Shown in pieces: positions 27,777 through 63,698 of a stretch of DNA of 64,000 nt. Numbering within the stretch: position 1 is the stretch's first letter; every line of letters starts with the position of its first letter. The stretch comes from Moniliella sp. 'wahieum' (taxonomy: Eukaryota > Basidiomycota > Moniliellomycetes > Moniliellales > Moniliellaceae): the NCBI GenBank assembly GCA_003971905.1, contig RSEE01000002.1, forward strand, positions 558,001 to 622,000, read 5' to 3'. A model generated the notes under the pieces. That model saw only the letters and a program-made list of their open reading frames with translations, had not been told where the DNA came from and did not search any database. The position numbers and the translations under genes were made by a program.

Positions 27777-28974
27777 GCCGCGAGGAACGGAGTAATTCCC
27801 GAGATCCTGGACCCTGCAATTGGTCTTACGACTTGCGAACACGGCTCCTACCTCGGAGGGTCTGAGCTGCGGCCTTTGCACGCAGGCAGCCACCCAAACT
27901 AGAGGGTCTCTCCCTTGCCTCTACACCCGCTCGGTTCAACCAGGATCTGAAGCAGGACCTAACGTACGTAACTCTAATGCCATGTCCAAGGGCTTTCACC
28001 CCTAAATGCCTGGGTCGAGCTCCGTCTCGGGGCTCGCCCCATGTGCATGACATTTGTAGGGTAAAAATCTTCCTCGTAATAGTGTGGGAGTTTTTGTAGG
28101 TGCGCGAATACCCTGCACTTAAGGGATCCCGCACTAGGACAGTCGGGGTGACACCGTAGGAGGAAAGCTTCCTGGTCACAGCCCCCTGCGAACCCTCTGC
28201 CGTACGGGTGTGGGGCGCAGCTGGAAACGCTCCTGTATTCGCTCTTCCTCGACTCGGTTCTCGCTTGCAGCCGTCGGCTGGGCCATTACACACAGGATTC
28301 ATCGATTCATCCTCCGCTCGCAGGTCACTAGGGTCACTGTCGCACTCTGGTCCGCATATATCCTCCCAACCCTGATTGCAGCCCGCGCGGCACAGTTCCA
28401 TACTACATAACCGCGCGCAGACATGAAGGCCATGTGCTCACTGCTCATTTCTGTGCCACTGGTTGTTCAGTGTTCAACCTTCAGTCCTCTTCGCCACCAC
28501 CTCTCCTCCCTCCTCCCCCCTTCTTCCCCTTCTTCTCGCTCACCTCGTTACTTGATTATTACTCGTTGATCGTCTGTGGTTTTGAGAATAAGTATCTCCA
28601 GGTCAGAACCTTCAAGCTTCACGCGTCGCGACACGGTATTCACTTTGAGGAAGGGTTCAAATCCACGTTGGTCGGAACCGATGCAACTGGGGAGTTATAT
28701 AGTCGATCAGGCTAACCCGTAGGTGGGGAGGCGTGAATTAATCGATAATAGTACTAGGTGAAGAGGGAACGACCGTACGTATGCTTGGGGTTTTCGCGCT
28801 CCTGCGGCTAGGCGTTGCATTCCCTTGGCGCAGCTGGGATGCGTTGCTGTCATTCGCCTCTATGCGCGAGCTCACACAAGAGCATGATATGAGCGGGACA
28901 GCGAAGAAAGGAGCACTTGATAACCTGCGAGTCGGAACGGTGTTGGGACAACGACCTCTGATAGTATAAATGCA

Positions 28975-42238: not shown

Positions 42239-42824
42239 CACAATGGATGCAAGCAGAATGGTGCTGGCTATGAGCGTGTGCCTTGATAGGAGATGGAGAT
42301 GGAGATGAGATGGAGATGGAGATGGATGGAGATGGAGATGGAGATGGAGATGGAGATGGAGATGGAGATGGAGATGGGGAGGATAACAAGGGGCGATGGT
42401 TGGGTAGGCCAGGAGAGAAAGGAGAATATACTCGCTGGCTGGCGTGTGGAGACGCATGCATGCATGCGTGTGGGCAGGGTCTGGCCGGAGCTTAAGCAGG
42501 CTTAGACAGGCGCAGTGCCCATCGCGTGGGCCCTCTCTTCCCTCGGCCCAGACACTGCCCCAGCGCCCCCGCCGCTGCCCGCATGTAGTAATGCCTGGCC
42601 TCGCTACCGTCGTCTGCGAACGGTGCCTCCCATCTCGCCAGTCTTGCTCCGGCCGTGTACGGTTCTGCTCGCTACTACAGCCTCTCTCGCACCCACCCCC
42701 GTCTCTCTGCCCCTCCTTCCATCCTCCAAGCGTCTTTGCGCAGTCGCAACGCCTCCCTTCTGCACTCCCCACGGCGCCGCGGTTCCTCTTCTCTGCCCCA
42801 CCCCCACACACCACACCACCGGCC
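42239..42824. other. Spacer with GGAGAT repeat
   Basis: The left part is a GGAGAT microsatellite (42288-42378) and the rest is CT-rich sequence leading to the next start. No gene is recognised. Confidence 0.5.
42288..42378. repeat. GGAGAT hexamer microsatellite
   Basis: About fourteen GGAGAT units with two interruptions lie 50 bp past the topoisomerase II stop, in its probable 3' untranslated region. Confidence 0.9.
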
Positions 42825-44690: not shown

Positions 44691-45939
44691 CGCTGGCCCT
44701 TTGCGATTGCCACTTTTCCCCGGCTTTTGTCTTCATTCTTTCTTCGCCCATTGCTCTTCCACGAGCAGTACCTTACAAAAGAGTGTCTCCTTTTTACATT
44801 GCTGTCGGCACTGTGCGCTACATTCATATTATCCTGTCGTCCTATCGTACCATGACTCTGTCGGCTTCGTCCAGCACGTACTACTACGCACTGTATGTTG
44901 TGACCAAATCGAAGACTGACTCCCCGCCGCCTGCTTATCTGCATGCGGTTTCTTTCTTTCGGGTGCACGCATAACTGCATACCGGTAGCTTAACTGGCGC
45001 GGTAACAATTTCCCCGTGCTTGACCGTTTTGACCACATCGCCTTCATCGTTTTGTTCTTTCACTTGTCCCTTGTCTTTTGCCTTTTGCTGTGTTACTGTG
45101 TACTTTCTGTCGAAAAACTAAAAAAAAAACTTGTGACTATATCCATAATTCTCTCGCGCCCTTACTCTTCCTCCCTTCGGGTCCTTACGCTCCATGCGAT
45201 ATACTTTTCAATTGTATCGCCCTAATATGGGCCTATTATGTTGTCTCATGGCCTCCTCACACCTCGTATTTGGGCCTGCTCGACACGTCGAGAGCAATGA
45301 AGGTACTGTAGAACTGGGTGCAGACTAACTTAGTACAGCGCACATTCTCCACTCACCATACTCTCAACAGTTAACCGCGGTTTGGCCTGTGGAACCCAAA
45401 GACCACACCTTGTCTTCTCCCCTCTCTGGGGCCACACAAGTATCCACAACACATATTCATAGTAAGTTGTCTAGATACCAATTTTTGGTACAAACCCCGA
45501 AGTGAGGTTACTGTTTTGGGGGCACTTTTTGAACGTCCAAGGTGAAAAGTAGAGGGCGACATGAGGATCCTAAGCTGCCAAGCGTGTGCTGGCTCTCTTG
45601 CTAGAACCAGTGGTGGGTTCGGTCGTACCTCTCCAAAGGCCCAAACGTGGCCTTAAGGCCTCATGGCCGTCATTGCCCTCATGGCCTCAATGGCACTTTC
45701 GGAACTCGGGAAGATCGATGATCGATGATCGATAATCGATAATCGATGATCATACAAGCTGGATTAGGTATTTGGTCGACCAGTCGCGGATCACGTGATC
45801 TGACGATGACCTGGAGGAGCGGAGTTTGCCCTTCTCTTTTCCGCCTGATTGTTGAGGCTGGTTTTTGGGCGATTGGAGAGCGCGTTCGGCTAGGTCAAGC
45901 AAGTGGTGCGACGCCACCATCGATTTGTGGATTGGAGTG
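44691..45939. other. Intergenic upstream of SF3A2
   Basis: No recognisable gene. GTACGC at 44692 could be a last donor site of the zinc-cluster gene, in which case a further exon would lie here, but none is evident. The ATCGAT heptamer array lies at 45714-45751, about 190 bp before the SF3A2 start. Confidence 0.45.
45714..45751. repeat. ATCGAT+G/A heptamer, five copies
   Basis: ATCGATG, ATCGATG, ATCGATA, ATCGATA, ATCGATG and a partial sixth unit. The palindromic core never varies; only the spacer base does. Confidence 0.9.
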
Positions 45940-51276: not shown

Positions 51277-51304
51277 TCGATAATCGATCATTGATAATCG
51301 ATAA
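51277..51304. repeat. ATCGAT-based heptamers, degenerate
   Basis: TCGATAATCGATCATTGATAATCGAT-type sequence, a degenerate version of the array at 45714, 150 bp upstream of the OPT start codon. Confidence 0.6.
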
Positions 51305-51333
51305 CGGCGGTGGCGTGGAGGATAATCGAGAGA

Positions 51334-51348
51334 TACTCAGTACTCAGT
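51334..51348. repeat. AGTACT+C heptamer, two copies
   Basis: TACTCAG twice followed by T, giving palindromic AGTACT with spacer C. Confidence 0.65.
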
Positions 51349-51422
51349 GCCAGACAGGCCCCATCCCTCGGGCCCAGCACGCACTGCGCCACTGTGTGTG
51401 CATCCAGCGTACGATGGCGGGG

Positions 51423-51446
51423 GCGTCACACGTCACATGTCACACC
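51423..51446. repeat. ACATGT+C heptamer, degenerate
   Basis: CGTCACA, CGTCACA and TGTCACA units in tandem. Confidence 0.6.
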
Positions 51447-51845
51447 AGGAACAACACCAGGGTGGGGTGCCCGGGTGCCCGAGTGGCTGCTTGATGCATG
51501 ATTGTCGAGTACTTCGAGGAGCTCAAGTGACTCCATACCGGTGCTGCCGAGCCGCCGCCTGCCGCCGAGCCGCCGAACCGAGCACACTCAGATTCACGTC
51601 GAACGTACTTGATTGAGGCGTTGAAGGATCATCGGTCAGCGCTCAGCTCTCCGTTTCTCTCGGCTCGGCAAACCCCAGGCGGATCTGCCGGTGCTTCTCA
51701 AGCAGTGCTGCCACTAACGCGCTAACATGTAACACAAGAGGACGGCCAGATGATAGTTGGACCCTGCCAATGTGAAGACCACGTGGATTTGTACTTGGGG
51801 CCATCTCTCCTGGTCTTTGTCCCTCGACGGGCCTGGACCTGATCG

Positions 51846-51876
51846 AGCTTGAAGCTTGAAGCTTGATCGATGATCT
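51846..51876. repeat. AAGCTT+G array joined to ATCGAT+G
   Basis: Three AAGCTTG units, the first missing one base, run directly into ATCGATGATC. Two families therefore share the same phase of seven across their junction. Confidence 0.75.
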
Positions 51877-52080
51877 CCCCAGCAGCCACTGGCCCTGCCT
51901 TTTGGCCTGTTTGGTCCGCTCCAAACTTCAAAAGCTCCAGCTTCACATGTTGCACCACGGGCCTTCCCCAGTGTTGAGTGAATTGAGTGTACTATCTTGT
52001 ACCTCCTTCCACAAACGTACTGAGTATTATCGGTATTCAACGTACTCAACGTTCAACACACCACATTAAGTACGTTCGGT

Positions 52081-52100
52081 ACGTTGAACGTTGAACGTAC
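52081..52100. repeat. AACGTT+G heptamer array
   Basis: ACGTTGAACGTTGAACGTAC: AACGTTG repeated, then changing to a GTAC core. Related TTCAACG units lie at 52037-52055 in the opposite orientation. Confidence 0.75.
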
Positions 52101-52372
52101 TTGTCAGCCGGTGTACCTGGATATCGCTAGCTCCTGGCTTGTGTGTCGATACGTTACGCGTATTAGCCAGCCATTCTTATCGACAAGTGATATTCCGATT
52201 ACCGATTATCTCGGTTTGATAGGAAAGAAAGAAAACGTTTAGACAAAAAGTACGTATACGCGACAATGGCGGCTGGCGCTATGCGAAGAGATGCGCTGAC
52301 TGATGCCAAGAACCATCACATGCATCACCATCAATTCGAACAGCTTTCGAAGTGCTATGGGTCAATGACCAC

Positions 52373-52400
52373 GCATCATGCATCATGCATCATGCATCAT
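52373..52400. repeat. ATGCAT+C heptamer, four perfect copies
   Basis: GCATCAT repeated four times exactly. The core ATGCAT is palindromic. Confidence 0.9.
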
Positions 52401-52623
52401 GGGGCTTTTCCCAGGCTTCCCCACAGGCTCCCCCACAGATATTGACACGAGCATCCCGGGCACCCCATAGTATCCAGAACAAAAAAGGAAGAAAATGGGT
52501 ATGCTATGTGCCGATACCCCGAGAACCGTTTTTTTGCCGTGGGGTAGTTCGATGGCATACGTCCTCACATGCCTCACAGTCATGAAGCTGTGCGGTATAA
52601 TTGAACAGGGAGAAGTCACCCAG

Positions 52624-52642
52624 CCTTAGGCCTTAGGCCTTA
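52624..52642. repeat. AGGCCT+T heptamer, nearly three copies
   Basis: CCTTAGG twice followed by CCTTA; core AGGCCT with spacer T. A second array of the same unit, slightly degenerate, lies at 52708-52735. Confidence 0.8.
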
Positions 52643-52738
52643 CTGCTTGCATCTTAGAGCAGTGACTAGTGACTGGTGATGCATGATGGTTAGACGCTAG
52701 ACCTTCGACCTTAGGCCTTAGGGCCTTAGGCCTTAATG

Positions 52739-52784
52739 AAGCTTGAAGCTTGAAGCTTGAAGCTTGAAGCGCTTGAAGCTTGAA
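52739..52784. repeat. AAGCTT+G heptamer, six copies with one interruption
   Basis: Four perfect AAGCTTG units, an AAGCG interruption, then further units. It follows the AGGCCT array directly. Confidence 0.88.
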
Positions 52785-52863
52785 GAGAGCACGCACAGCA
52801 GCATAATCATTAATCACCAATCATTGATCATGATGCATGATGAATGAACGCGTGAACCGGCCC

Positions 52864-52922
52864 GAGGCTGAGCTCCTGAGGGCCTGAGGGCCTGAGCCCT
52901 GAGCCCTGAGCGCCTGAGCCCT
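52864..52922. repeat. CCTGAG-based degenerate repeat
   Basis: A chain of CTGAGGGC and CTGAGCCC units with seven- and eight-base spacing. It is related to AGGCCT and TGAGCTC palindromes but less regular. Confidence 0.6.
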
Positions 52923-53410
52923 CGCCGTTCCCGCACACCGTCAGGCCTCCAGCCCCTCACCCTCACCCGACCGCTGACCCACTGAGCTTATCGCTTATCT
53001 GCCGCATGCCAAGAGCTCAAGAACGTGCTCGCACTCTCAGTCTTTCAGACCTCAGCACTGGCACACTGACGACGCGCGCGCGGAGAGCCTCTAGAGGCTC
53101 AGGCTGAGCAGTACGACTAGTAGGACTAGTAGTAGGTCGATCGCAGGGTTATTCGGTTCTATCAACGCGCGCTCAGCCACTCCGCGCTGTTTGTCGCGCT
53201 CATGGAAATCGTTCAATTTGCAGCGCAAATATAGACAGAGATATAGACAGAGATAGCATCGATTACTTTCGTTACTCCAAGAGACTCCGACATCCTCGCT
53301 GCTACTCCCTACTGCTCGCTGCTACCACTCTGACTGACGGCAAGGATGCATGATGTGTGATGAGCATGTGAGACGAAGTCATCGATGCCTTTTCCCGTTC
53401 CCCGCTCTGT

Positions 53411-53438
53411 CATGCACATGCATGTCACATGTCACATG
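53411..53438. repeat. ATGCAT and ACATGT+C heptamers in one array
   Basis: CATGCACATGCATG is followed by TCACATG units. Two palindromic families again share one array. Confidence 0.7.
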
Positions 53439-53512
53439 GCTGTAGGTGGCAGTCATCGAAGTCACTAGTCATCGATCACCACGTCGTAACAGGATCATCG
53501 ATCAGGCCTCTG

Positions 53513-53538
53513 AAGCTTGAAGCTTGAAGCTTGAAGCT
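53513..53538. repeat. AAGCTT+G heptamer, three perfect copies plus a partial
   Basis: It is preceded within 25 bp by ATCGATCAGGCCTC, that is by ATCGAT and AGGCCT cores. Confidence 0.88.
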
Positions 53539-53771
53539 CGATCTGAAGGGCCTACGCGCTTACGCGCCTACGGTCGATCTGTGGCAATGACAACATGTGA
53601 CCATGTGGCCCCTGAAACCCTGTCTCAGACCCTGAGGCGACACTATGCGGGGGAGACGAGGGACAGGCATATTGCACCCAGCCGAAAGAGCAGCAGCTTT
53701 TGTCCAAGTGTTGGGGCACCGTTGGGACCTGTTTATGGTTTTGCCCGACGGACTCGCATGCCAACTAACGC

Positions 53772-53827
53772 GGCCTCAGGCCTCAGGCCTGATTATTTCC
53801 CTGGGTTCCCCTAAGGCCTAAGGCCCA
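53772..53827. repeat. AGGCCT+C and AGGCCT+A arrays
   Basis: GGCCTCA repeats at 53772-53790; CTAAGGC repeats at 53811-53827. The same palindromic core is used with two different spacer bases 20 bp apart. Confidence 0.8.
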
Positions 53828-53980
53828 AGTGCCGGAGCCTCAAGCCTAAAAGAGGTCCTGAGGAATCATCGAATCACTAATATACTCGCAAGCCTCGTCA
53901 CGCGTCAGGGCAGCCTAATTACTCTATGGCTTTTTCCTGATTCCACACGTCCTCGCGTTCTCCCCATCACCTTATCGAGC

Positions 53981-54048
53981 GCTTGAAAAGCTCTTGAAGC
54001 TTAGCTTGAAGCTTGAGCTTGAGGAGATTGAAGCTTCAAGCTTCAAGC
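53981..54048. repeat. AAGCTT array that switches orientation
   Basis: Degenerate AAGCTTG units up to about 54028 change to AAGCTTC units (TTGAAGC then CTTCAAG), making a large imperfect inverted repeat centred near 54028. Confidence 0.75.
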
Positions 54049-60613: not shown

Positions 60614-60632
60614 TCAGGCCTCAGGCCTCAGG
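60614..60632. repeat. AGGCCT+C heptamer array
   Basis: TCAGGCC repeated; same unit as at 53772. Confidence 0.75.
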
Positions 60633-60739: not shown

Positions 60740-63410
60740 AATGAAGTGTAGCGCGGGCGGGTTGGGTGGATGCTCGCAACAAGAATACAATTCTAAGGGG
60801 GTCCCCTGCAAATTGAAGGGGCGTCAATGAGAAGTTGTAATACTGTGCTTGCGACGTGTGAGATGCATTGTTTTGTTGGTTGCATCATGATGTGCATCAT
60901 CGACATCATCTACACCATGCATCTCATCGGCAGATGATATCATCTTCATGTATCAACCGGCGGATGGACTGGACAATTAAAAGGGGTATCGATAGCACGA
61001 ACTATCATGTACCACTCACACCTTAAGATGCGTGTCGTAAGGCGAGAGCCAACAGAGGATATTGATGTCTGCGACCCTGGGATAGTCGATATTTTAGAGG
61101 CGCTTTCCCAAGGAGGAGAGGACGGACCACACTCTCACGGCTGATCGATCCTATTGAGACTTTTATCGGGGGGGGGTACGACGACGTGGCAAGGTGTAGT
61201 GTGAATTCACCGAGACTAAGGCAAAAGACAAAAGCGTGTCCGGAGTCCGTCCTGGAGAATTGCCTGGGAAGGCCGCGGTGCAGGTCTCGGTATGTAGGTT
61301 TGAGCAAGCCCGCGGCCATTGGACCAACTCAATCATTGTAAGATCGCAACCTGATCCATACACGGTGGTGAGAAGCATATGGAGAGACGCATATATACTT
61401 TTCGCGCTGGACTACGGCGGCAACGGCTGTGATCGAGAGGAAACTGGACATGAACGGTAATATATGTATATAGGAGGGTCCGCAGGGAGGGCAAGCGAGC
61501 TGATCGGAACCGTGTTTCTTCTAGACTGATGGAGTTTGCCTAGAAGAAAGATGAAGGGGAAAGAGAGATGACACGGAGTCAGAAAGGTGGGCGGCTTCAA
61601 TGGGCCATCACAATTATATCTAAGAACAGCAAGTTTTATATAGAAGAGAAAGGGAACAAAGGGAAGGCCCACAGGTCTACCACAAAAAGGGGAAACGAGT
61701 CAAAGGGAAAACGTGAGGACCAAGCGCGAGAGGCACGAGGTGAGAGACGAGGCGAGAGAGCGAATCAACCTTGTGTAGTGTTTTGTATTTTAGACGAGTA
61801 TGAGCGGAGAAGAGACGATTTGTTATGAGTTTGTAGATGGGTCGAGAATCCGAGTCTCACGAGAGCGAAAGACACAGAAACCTTGAGTGGCAATAGGGAG
61901 AGAAGCCGAGAAGCGAGCGCGACGATGAGGAAGTGGAGGTAGCGCGATTTAATCGTCGCCCCGTGGTAGTATGGATACCCGCCGTCGAGAGAAATCGATT
62001 AGAATACCGAAAGTGATGGTCACTGTAAGTTCGACTGGGATACTATATGGTAGTGTTGAGAGCTGTGTTATGGGGAGAGGGACGTACTGGCACATCCGAA
62101 CGGAGCTAGAGACGCGGTGGGGGGCCTCCCAATCTTGAGATGTCGGATCGCATGGCAATGTTGTGTGTGTGCCGGAATGGGCAGGATAGTAGCACGCCTA
62201 TCGTGGTCCGTGGTCCTGAAGGGTTGTGGCCTGACGGTTGACGCAGGCAAAGGTAGGGTAGGACAGGTCCTATCACACTAATACAACCCGTCTCTTGTAG
62301 AATCACCGCAGGATCCGGACAGAGGGAACTAAAAGGAAGGTGGATATCGACGGCACGTGATGCCCGCGGTCGAAGGGATACTGGAAGACCGAGATGTGGG
62401 GTCACTGGAAGCAGGTCCGTAGGACTGCTGTGGTGAACTAGGAGGAAGGCAGGAGTTGCCTGCAGTGGTGGGTCAAGTATGGAATTGCAAAGGATGACAG
62501 GTATTACATATGATGAAGGATGAAAGGAAGAGACAAAATGTAGACGAGGAAGAAGACGAAATGACCCGTTAGAGAGAAAAAACATGGATCAAAGGTCATA
62601 TATCCGACGTACCGGCAGGTTCTATAAGGAATAGACAACACAACGAAGAAAGTGGAAAGGAATGGAGATCAGTGGGCCTCAGAAAGGCAGTAAGGAAAAC
62701 GTCCCCACTCAGCCAGAAACGGGAACACAGCCAAAACCAGAAAGTCCCAAAGTATATATGTAAAGGCCAGGTTCTCCACCCTCAGCGTGCCTCAGCCAGA
62801 AACGGAAAAGGTAGCGGGAGAGGGGGAAAATCTCACATCTCATAACGAGAACGAGGCGCACACAGATCAGGAAACTGATGTCCAGATCCTGAGGCTCAAC
62901 TTGGAGCTCACTTGCGTCCAAGACCAACGACCAAATAATGATTGATGTATTAGGGTGAAGTCACAGGGGGATTCAGAAGCTCACGCACGGACCACCTCAG
63001 CCGCAACAAAAAATGACTTGCCGCTGGATCCTAGTATAGTAGTTCATAAATCGATGGGAACATGCTCCGTTTGGACACAACAAGGAGCACACGGGTTGCT
63101 CAAGGTTCAGGCAAGCCAACCTAGCCTTGACGTAGGCCTAACCTAGGCAAGGGAGACAGGGGGAGAGGATTGGCTCGGCTGGGCCCGGCCACCCCGCCGT
63201 CGCCCGTAAGAGGAACCACAGCCTCGGGAGAGGGTTATACTGTCGATAAAGTCTTTTTCCCAAACGCCATCCGAGTCTCAAAACCCACATCTCTCGTCCA
63301 TTACTTACATCCGGTGCACTCATCTATTGAACCCCAGATCTTCGTGGACTTCCGGTGCACTGGAAGGATGGTTTGGGCCCTCCTGTCGACGGGTGTGTGG
63401 AGGTCGTCGG

Positions 63411-63519: not shown

Positions 63520-63698
63520 AGGCCCTGCAACTTTCATGGGGAGCGATGCGTAACTTGGTTGGCGTAATTGACACGCTGGATGGGGAGGGAAATGGAGGGG
63601 TGCAACCCAATCAACGTAATCAACACATTGAAGGAGGATCGGGGGGTGCTTTTCACACTGCCCGCTTCTTGTTGTCACGTATCACGTCACACGACACG

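Follow-up and report, generated by a model that had tools for sequence, protein, structure and literature searches.

We have analyzed a window of 64,000 nucleotides (C2:558001-622000) of the Moniliella sp. 'wahieum' assembly (69.5 Mb, 223 contigs), and found that its tandem heptamers are built on a 7-bp duplication centred on TNA, with bases of the flank mirrored at a flush join. Our reading, to which we give a probability of about 75%, is that the heptamer units are scars of 7-bp staggered breaks at NNTNANN, whose ends were sealed as hairpins and then rejoined by end joining. What appears to be a repeat rule looks like a record of DNA repair, the heptamers resembling break scars that have piled up.

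Extent of the heptamer pattern

The window has 40 exact runs of period 7 measuring at least 15 bp; 24 contain an A-NNNN-T palindromic core, one contains another 6-bp palindrome and 15 contain none. Cores of this type are present in 64 of the 2344 possible heptamer necklaces, and 20 dinucleotide shuffles of the window gave 0.55 period-7 runs per window, never with A-NNNN-T. Over 264 kb (the window plus 20 stretches of contig C1, L009-L028) we found 129 period-7 runs, 78 with a 6-bp palindrome, which was A-NNNN-T in 75. The first-pass annotation had claimed that the arrays share an A-NNNN-T palindrome plus one free base, and had suggested counting period-7 runs against shuffles; the count confirms it in both samples, palindromic cores being far commoner than in shuffled DNA (24 vs 0 in 20 shuffles). 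In the same 264 kb, palindromic units at periods 5, 6 and 9-13 were not above the frequency for random units, and at periods 8 and 14 a 6-bp palindrome was found in 4/23 and 2/3 runs, both small numbers. Genome-wide, (GAAGCTT)3 has 510 forward and 449 reverse matches (overlapping matches included), while its reversal, an array of a T-NNNN-A palindrome, has none in the 69.5 Mb.

The multiplicity of cores, of which at least eight had been listed, is real and the pattern is wider than that: 12 of the 16 possible A-NNNN-T cores form arrays in the 264 kb, where the four A+T-only cores appear as non-tandem copies without arrays, and all 16 four-base palindromes are present among the non-tandem copies. 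AGATCT had been reported from no array, which holds for the window, but it is found in arrays at L012:8198 and C1:329607 and is merely uncommon. None of the 24 window arrays starts inside the union of ORFs of at least 150 aa (a mechanical list covering 31.7 of the 64 kb), in agreement with the earlier placement of the arrays outside exons. The window also holds 61 non-tandem scars, eight of them inside the ORF union, and none was found in the 6 kb of its five Pfam-supported ORFs; the protein-family checks gave matches to Zn2Cys6, OPT, S10 peptidase and DUF3759, which we read as pointing to a fungus. The stretch at 51-54 kb, singled out before as the densest, is indeed the densest of the window, but similar arrays occur across the C1 stretches too. 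The features of the window used in this work are the following.

51277..54048, no strand assigned: densest window stretch of heptamer arrays and scars, non-coding
51848..51875, forward strand: mixed array CT-TGA-AGCT-TGA-AGCT-TGA-TCGA-TGA-TC (chain at 51850)
52373..52401, forward strand: ATGCAT+C array, exact period-7 run
52563..52578, forward strand: long-form scar CCTCACA-TG-CCTCACA, full 7-bp duplication plus 2 mirrored bases (k=6)
52623..52642, forward strand: AGGCCT+T array, exact period-7 run
52737..52785, forward strand: AAGCTT+G array, two exact period-7 runs with one interruption
53421..53438, forward strand: ACATGT+C array, exact period-7 run
53511..53538, forward strand: AAGCTT+G array, exact period-7 run
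53772..53790, forward strand: AGGCCT+C array, exact period-7 run
54031..54048, forward strand: AAGCTT+C array, exact period-7 run
28610..28621, forward strand: single scar CTTCA-AG-CTTCA in a copy of the LTR-end family, from aligned copies
28323..28338, forward strand: long-form scar GGTCACT-AG-GGTCACT, 7-bp duplication continued at the junction
60895..60910, forward strand: long-form scar CATCATC-GA-CATCATC, 7-bp duplication continued at the junction
63609..63624, forward strand: long-form scar AATCAAC-GT-AATCAAC, 7-bp duplication continued at the junction
60614..60632, forward strand: AGGCCT+C array within a solo-LTR-like repeat copy, a 14-bp insert by comparison with 22 aligned copies
45713..45747, forward strand: ATCGAT array with the free base switching from G to A

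Two other repeats were seen in the window. At 52859-52922 there is an 8-bp repeat (TGA-GGGCC and TGA-GCGCC mixed with TGA-GCCC) that resembles a one-base-longer junction class of the TNA scars, and at 42289-42377 an ordinary-looking GGAGAT hexamer array (15 copies, 93% matches), unlike the heptamers. Rfam and tRNA searches of the window gave no match.

The phase of the units extends beyond identical copies. Four TSA at 7-bp spacing with free N4 between them gave 7494 matches vs 1548 for the reversed pattern, and several of the 100 matches listed, all on C1, carried different palindromes in one 7-bp phase, as at C1:61651 (TGATGCATGACTAGTGACATGTGA). In the 264 kb, 22 pairs of differing A-NNNN-T cores have a spacing of 7 bp; pairs at other spacings up to 30 number mostly 2-12, with 15 at spacing 14. 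The pattern is not a rule about arrays: many instances are single 7-bp insertions at TNA; these and the differing palindromes side by side at 7-bp-phased TNA had escaped the first-pass annotation. A family of protein-binding sites, offered then as one explanation, with the 7-bp phasing kept by selection, would accommodate different cores in one phase and the location of most scars outside long ORFs. We regard it as highly improbable, because all 16 palindromes are used, the core letters are free and follow the flank, and TNA is repeated as a direct copy, direct copies predominating over inverted ones.

Form of the elementary scar

We examined solo TNA-N4-TNA pairs, that is, pairs with no identical N4 adjoining. 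With identical TNA on both sides, N4 was palindromic in 153 of 366 pairs, as against 340 of 6391 when the other 60 trinucleotides are pooled; with complementary N the figure was 32/119 and with any other N 21/155. In 145 isolated palindromic cases, the unit is continued only by the two left-hand flanking bases in 39 and only by the two right-hand ones in 56, while both flanks continue it in 26 and neither in 24; the match stops there, bases 3 and 4 matching in 22-31%. One-sided cases of XYTNA-Y'X'-XYTNA or its reverse complement numbered 109 at TNA (TGA 49, TCA 44, TAA 12, TTA 4) vs 88 at the other 60 centres together. The end of the flank match at two bases and the one-sided cases together give XYTNA-Y'X'-XYTNA, or its reverse complement, as the basic form, in which 2 bp of flank supply the palindrome formed at the join. 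The target itself is longer, as the extra bases in junctions longer by one or two match a 7-bp duplication in 23/30 (k=5, about 1/4 expected) and 21/46 (k=6, about 1/16 expected). Two direct copies of a target with a fixed length of 7 bp lie at the join, as in the footprint of transposon excision.

The junctions were typed by the bases trimmed and the mirrored bases added, with palindromic targets left out. Those with trimming equal to mirrored addition were 159 at TNA vs 5, 6 and 9 at ANT, GNC and CNG, so that P nucleotides or small deletions are present at the join. The junctions with two bases trimmed and two added were 67 and 55 at TNA (vs 0/0/0 and 0/1/3 at ANT/GNC/CNG), and those with one trimmed and one added 22 and 15 (vs 3/3/4 and 2/2/2). 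Plain 7-bp duplications showed no clear excess (28 at TNA vs 20/39/27 at ANT/GNC/CNG). Flush palindromic forms reached 88+68 at TNA vs 1+1 at ANT, whereas odd-centred forms, in which the palindrome is centred on a complement, were 1+1 vs 2+4; two odd-centred one-base forms were somewhat more frequent at TNA (15 and 9, vs 5/5/9 and 5/3/5 at ANT/GNC/CNG). Among 156 events the flanks CT, GA, GT and TG were over-represented 1.5-2.2 times, and TT, TA, AT and GC fell below 0.4 of expectation, indicating a target preference beyond TNA that agrees with AAGCTT, ATCGAT and AACGTT heading the list of cores.

A holdout of three 10-kb stretches, taken from other contigs once the hypothesis had been fixed, gave 25 TNA 12-mers (both forms) and 0/0/0 at ANT/GNC/CNG, unevenly spread (L111 21, L110 4, L112 0) and with arrays counted more than once. 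The same 12-mer count in the 264 kb was 310 at TNA vs 2/3/10. Non-tandem scars with junctions of 4-6 numbered 197 in the 264 kb vs 6, 21 and 26 at ANT, GNC and CNG; extrapolated by length, the genome would contain some 50,000.

Replication template switching at TNA could also give mirrored micro-duplications, with neither a break nor a transposase: the nascent strand would jump, copy two opposite-strand bases and return a few bases back, T and A pairing on either strand. Mirrored short inserts are typical of strand switching, and our search for an element turned up none. Such switching does not predict, however, a duplication of exactly 7 bp whose left and right copies are both complete, nor the balance of trimming and addition, nor the near-absence of other centres, and we hold it to be unlikely.

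Staggered breakage followed by hairpin sealing would give these junctions in the following manner. A cut-and-paste transposase, either of a mobile element or an element-derived enzyme, would cut with a 7-bp stagger and leave two 7-bp copies. The chromosomal ends would be sealed as hairpins flush with the duplication, and the hairpins opened, at 2 nt from the tip in most cases and at 1 nt in fewer. If both ends were opened 2 nt from the tip, 4-nt overhangs ZWW'Z' and Y'X'XY would face each other, and their alignment and repair from either strand would yield the two most frequent forms, the net gain being 7 bp in either case; from opening at 1 nt would come the next two in frequency. The bases at the join would be P nucleotides that mirror the left or the right flank, and the usual net result would be 7 bp more and an A-NNNN-T palindrome between two TNA copies. 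Later hits at the same TNA, plus slippage of the resulting tandem heptamers, would build the arrays. The solo palindromes with complementary N would be expected from longer P nucleotides reaching through TNA. An earlier suggestion, a replication or repair process that copies a 6-bp hairpin with a one-base step, pointed the right way in involving repair and a hairpin; its unit has to be replaced by the 7-bp duplication NNTNANN, in which the N of TNA accounts for the free seventh base.

Sites with and without the insert, and the growth of arrays

Three dispersed repeat families served as natural alignments to compare sites before and after. In the LTR-end family the window copy alone has the 7-bp insert AGCTTCA at CTTCA, the other 21 copies being without it, and L088 has a mutated +7 at another TGA. 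The LINE-like family 1 (23 copies) has ten insertions of at least 7 bp. They include +7 scars in L048 and L043 (the latter with one changed base), a +9 common to the near-duplicates L035 and L040 (GATGAAC-TC-GATGAAC in L040) and a +27 in L016 carrying two palindromes built from its two flanks. Those in L045 and at L048@137 fit the scar form only in part, and those in L015, L034 and L047 (3/10) are unlike scars. In the solo-LTR family 2 (22 copies) the window copy has a +14 and L067 has GCTTAG-GC-GCTTAG, while L062 has a 9-bp ACC repeat instead of a scar. A +7 and a +13 scar distinguish L035 from L040, two copies with 91% identity over 1.7 kb. In the seven copy pairs compared there were 13 gaps of at least 5 bp, of which 2 were scars; of the two gaps of 7 bp, one is not a scar.

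We considered the three families as possible sources of the scars and rejected them. Family 1 looks like the 5'-truncated 3' end of a LINE-type element, family 2 like a solo LTR (TG..CA and, judged by eye, 5-bp duplications) and family 3 like the 3' end of an LTR. One solo-LTR-like copy (L060) has AACGTT heptamers on both sides, an arrangement that insertion into a heptamer array would give.

A scar makes a second TNA in phase, so that a second hit could add the palindrome of the other flank. In the mixed array at 51848..51875 the left palindromes come from the left flank CT and the right palindrome from the right flank TC, and among six mixed chains, agreement of the left palindrome with the left flank is seen in all six and of the right palindrome with the right flank in three. 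Single chains are 189 of 222, and 28 of the 189 fit neither flank; the other 33 chains have at least two units. With 9893 TNA in the 264 kb, random re-hits would by a rough estimate produce about five multi-unit chains; as 33 are found, slippage or re-targeting of palindromic sites is likely to contribute too.

The opposite weighting, in which hairpin-stabilised slippage is the main process and heptamers that are self-complementary but for one base fold and expand as CNG triplets do, draws on these multi-unit chains, on identical-unit arrays of up to 35 bp and on the ends of runs of at least 15 bp, which show little phase preference. It leaves unexplained the restriction to A..T, as T-NNNN-A, G..C and C..G cores would fold too, the fixed start and end phases of the 12-13-bp runs and the single inserts at non-palindromic sites. 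A slippage microsatellite grows from a pre-existing unit and has no fixed ends, but here the 12-13-bp phases are fixed and the palindrome is absent from the empty sites; the single scars refute slippage as the main cause. We consider this weighting improbable, even more so than template switching. In the break-and-join reading slippage is likely a secondary process only, and may act later, given the weak phase preference of the longer runs.

Known systems and the responsible enzyme

CNG triplet repeats, hairpin-forming arrays of a palindrome plus one free base, are a close repeat analogue; in contrast to them, every insertion here creates a palindrome of its own, and single copies are more numerous than chains. 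The passages of PMC5873905 that deal with excision by Ac/Ds, a hAT system, describe a target duplication that is kept, short deletions and P-nucleotide palindromes, attributed to hairpins and end joining, the palindromes being centred on the complement of the bordering base. The kept duplication and the mirrored join bases are shared with our scars. The duplication of Ac/Ds is 8 bp, however, whereas here it is 7 bp and TNA-centred, and complement-centred palindromes are not in excess here, the flush forms taking their place. Another likeness is found in V(D)J joints, in which, according to the part of PMC3528771 on this step, RAG cuts at the precise border and the hairpin is opened 1-3 nt from the tip, with 2 dominant. 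The flush join and the P nucleotides, mostly 2, are as in joints made by RAG cutting and Artemis opening, and the pattern is what a RAG/Transib-type break would leave, with a hairpin presumed in our case; the difference is that our scars are genome-wide in a fungus and at a 7-bp duplication. RAG/Transib elements make 5-bp target duplications, not the 7 bp found here.

Duplications of 7 bp are made by fungal DNA transposons. The sections of PMC12730594 on these groups report them for hAT7 in rusts and for Kyakuja (KDZ) of Agaricomycotina, the latter without inverted repeats. The length is that found here, but neither a KDZ nor a convincing hAT transposase match was obtained in the assembly, with family controls that gave no signal. 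Specifically, the hAT profile PF05699 gave two below-cut-off matches (E 0.04 and 0.05) that look spurious, its family controls also being silent, and PF14372 (hAT) and PF18758 (KDZ) gave 0 genome matches, which does not prove absence as their family controls gave no signal either. The TET/JBP profile PF12851 had 0 matches in the genome, and the same profile search applied to OPT had 105. The stretches with the hAT matches, L108 (C69) and L109 (C13), were rejected as elements. They share 95% identity over 3.1 kb, differ by numerous single-base indels and lack element structure; they are duplicated DNA, allelic DNA or assembly errors.

We also searched directly for elements. None with a TNA-centred 7-bp duplication exceeded the controls in 294 kb. 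Among 7-bp repeats, neither those bounded by terminal inverted repeats, of which 264 kb yielded none, nor those with CA..TG or six further pairs of ends provided a convincing candidate beyond the control level. A transposon candidate in L016 turned out to be a 1.16-kb unit in tandem (L016:3503-6071, 98-99% identity), which begins near a LINE-like repeat copy. We likewise rejected the arrays as parts of a larger dispersed element, as the 3.6-kb core region was matched elsewhere almost only at arrays (among the 74 matches listed, one is itself and two are at its coding end). An element that is rare, has been lost or belongs to another family may be responsible, or else a domesticated enzyme.

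Several viral contigs (L089-L107, IMG/VR; mostly 34-41% G+C) have period-7 repeats on GCTTG/CAAGC, and viral heptamers such as GCTTGTA, GCTTGCC and CAAGCGG adjoin an AAGCTT heptamer array. The viral contigs with the AAGCTT+S pattern had no excess of TNA scars (15 TNA vs 20 ANT in 19 records), and the GCTTG-based heptamers are for this reason a different repeat system. We found no published description of scars like ours in the open-licence literature, a scope that does not prove their absence.

From sequence alone the scars allow the stagger length, the target rule, the position of hairpin opening and the mode of joining to be read, and they show one route by which tandem repeats are born. A same-TNA duplication with a mirrored join is a signature that can be scanned for in any genome. 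In Moniliella the scars point to a mobile or domesticated enzyme missed by family searches. We tentatively propose, as a possibility that we rate below even odds, a new or domesticated transposase lineage with V(D)J-like flush hairpins and a 7-bp TNA stagger, with no recognisable element left. If this is true, such a lineage would have made tens of thousands of scars, by our extrapolation, and would be a main source of 7-bp tandem repeats.
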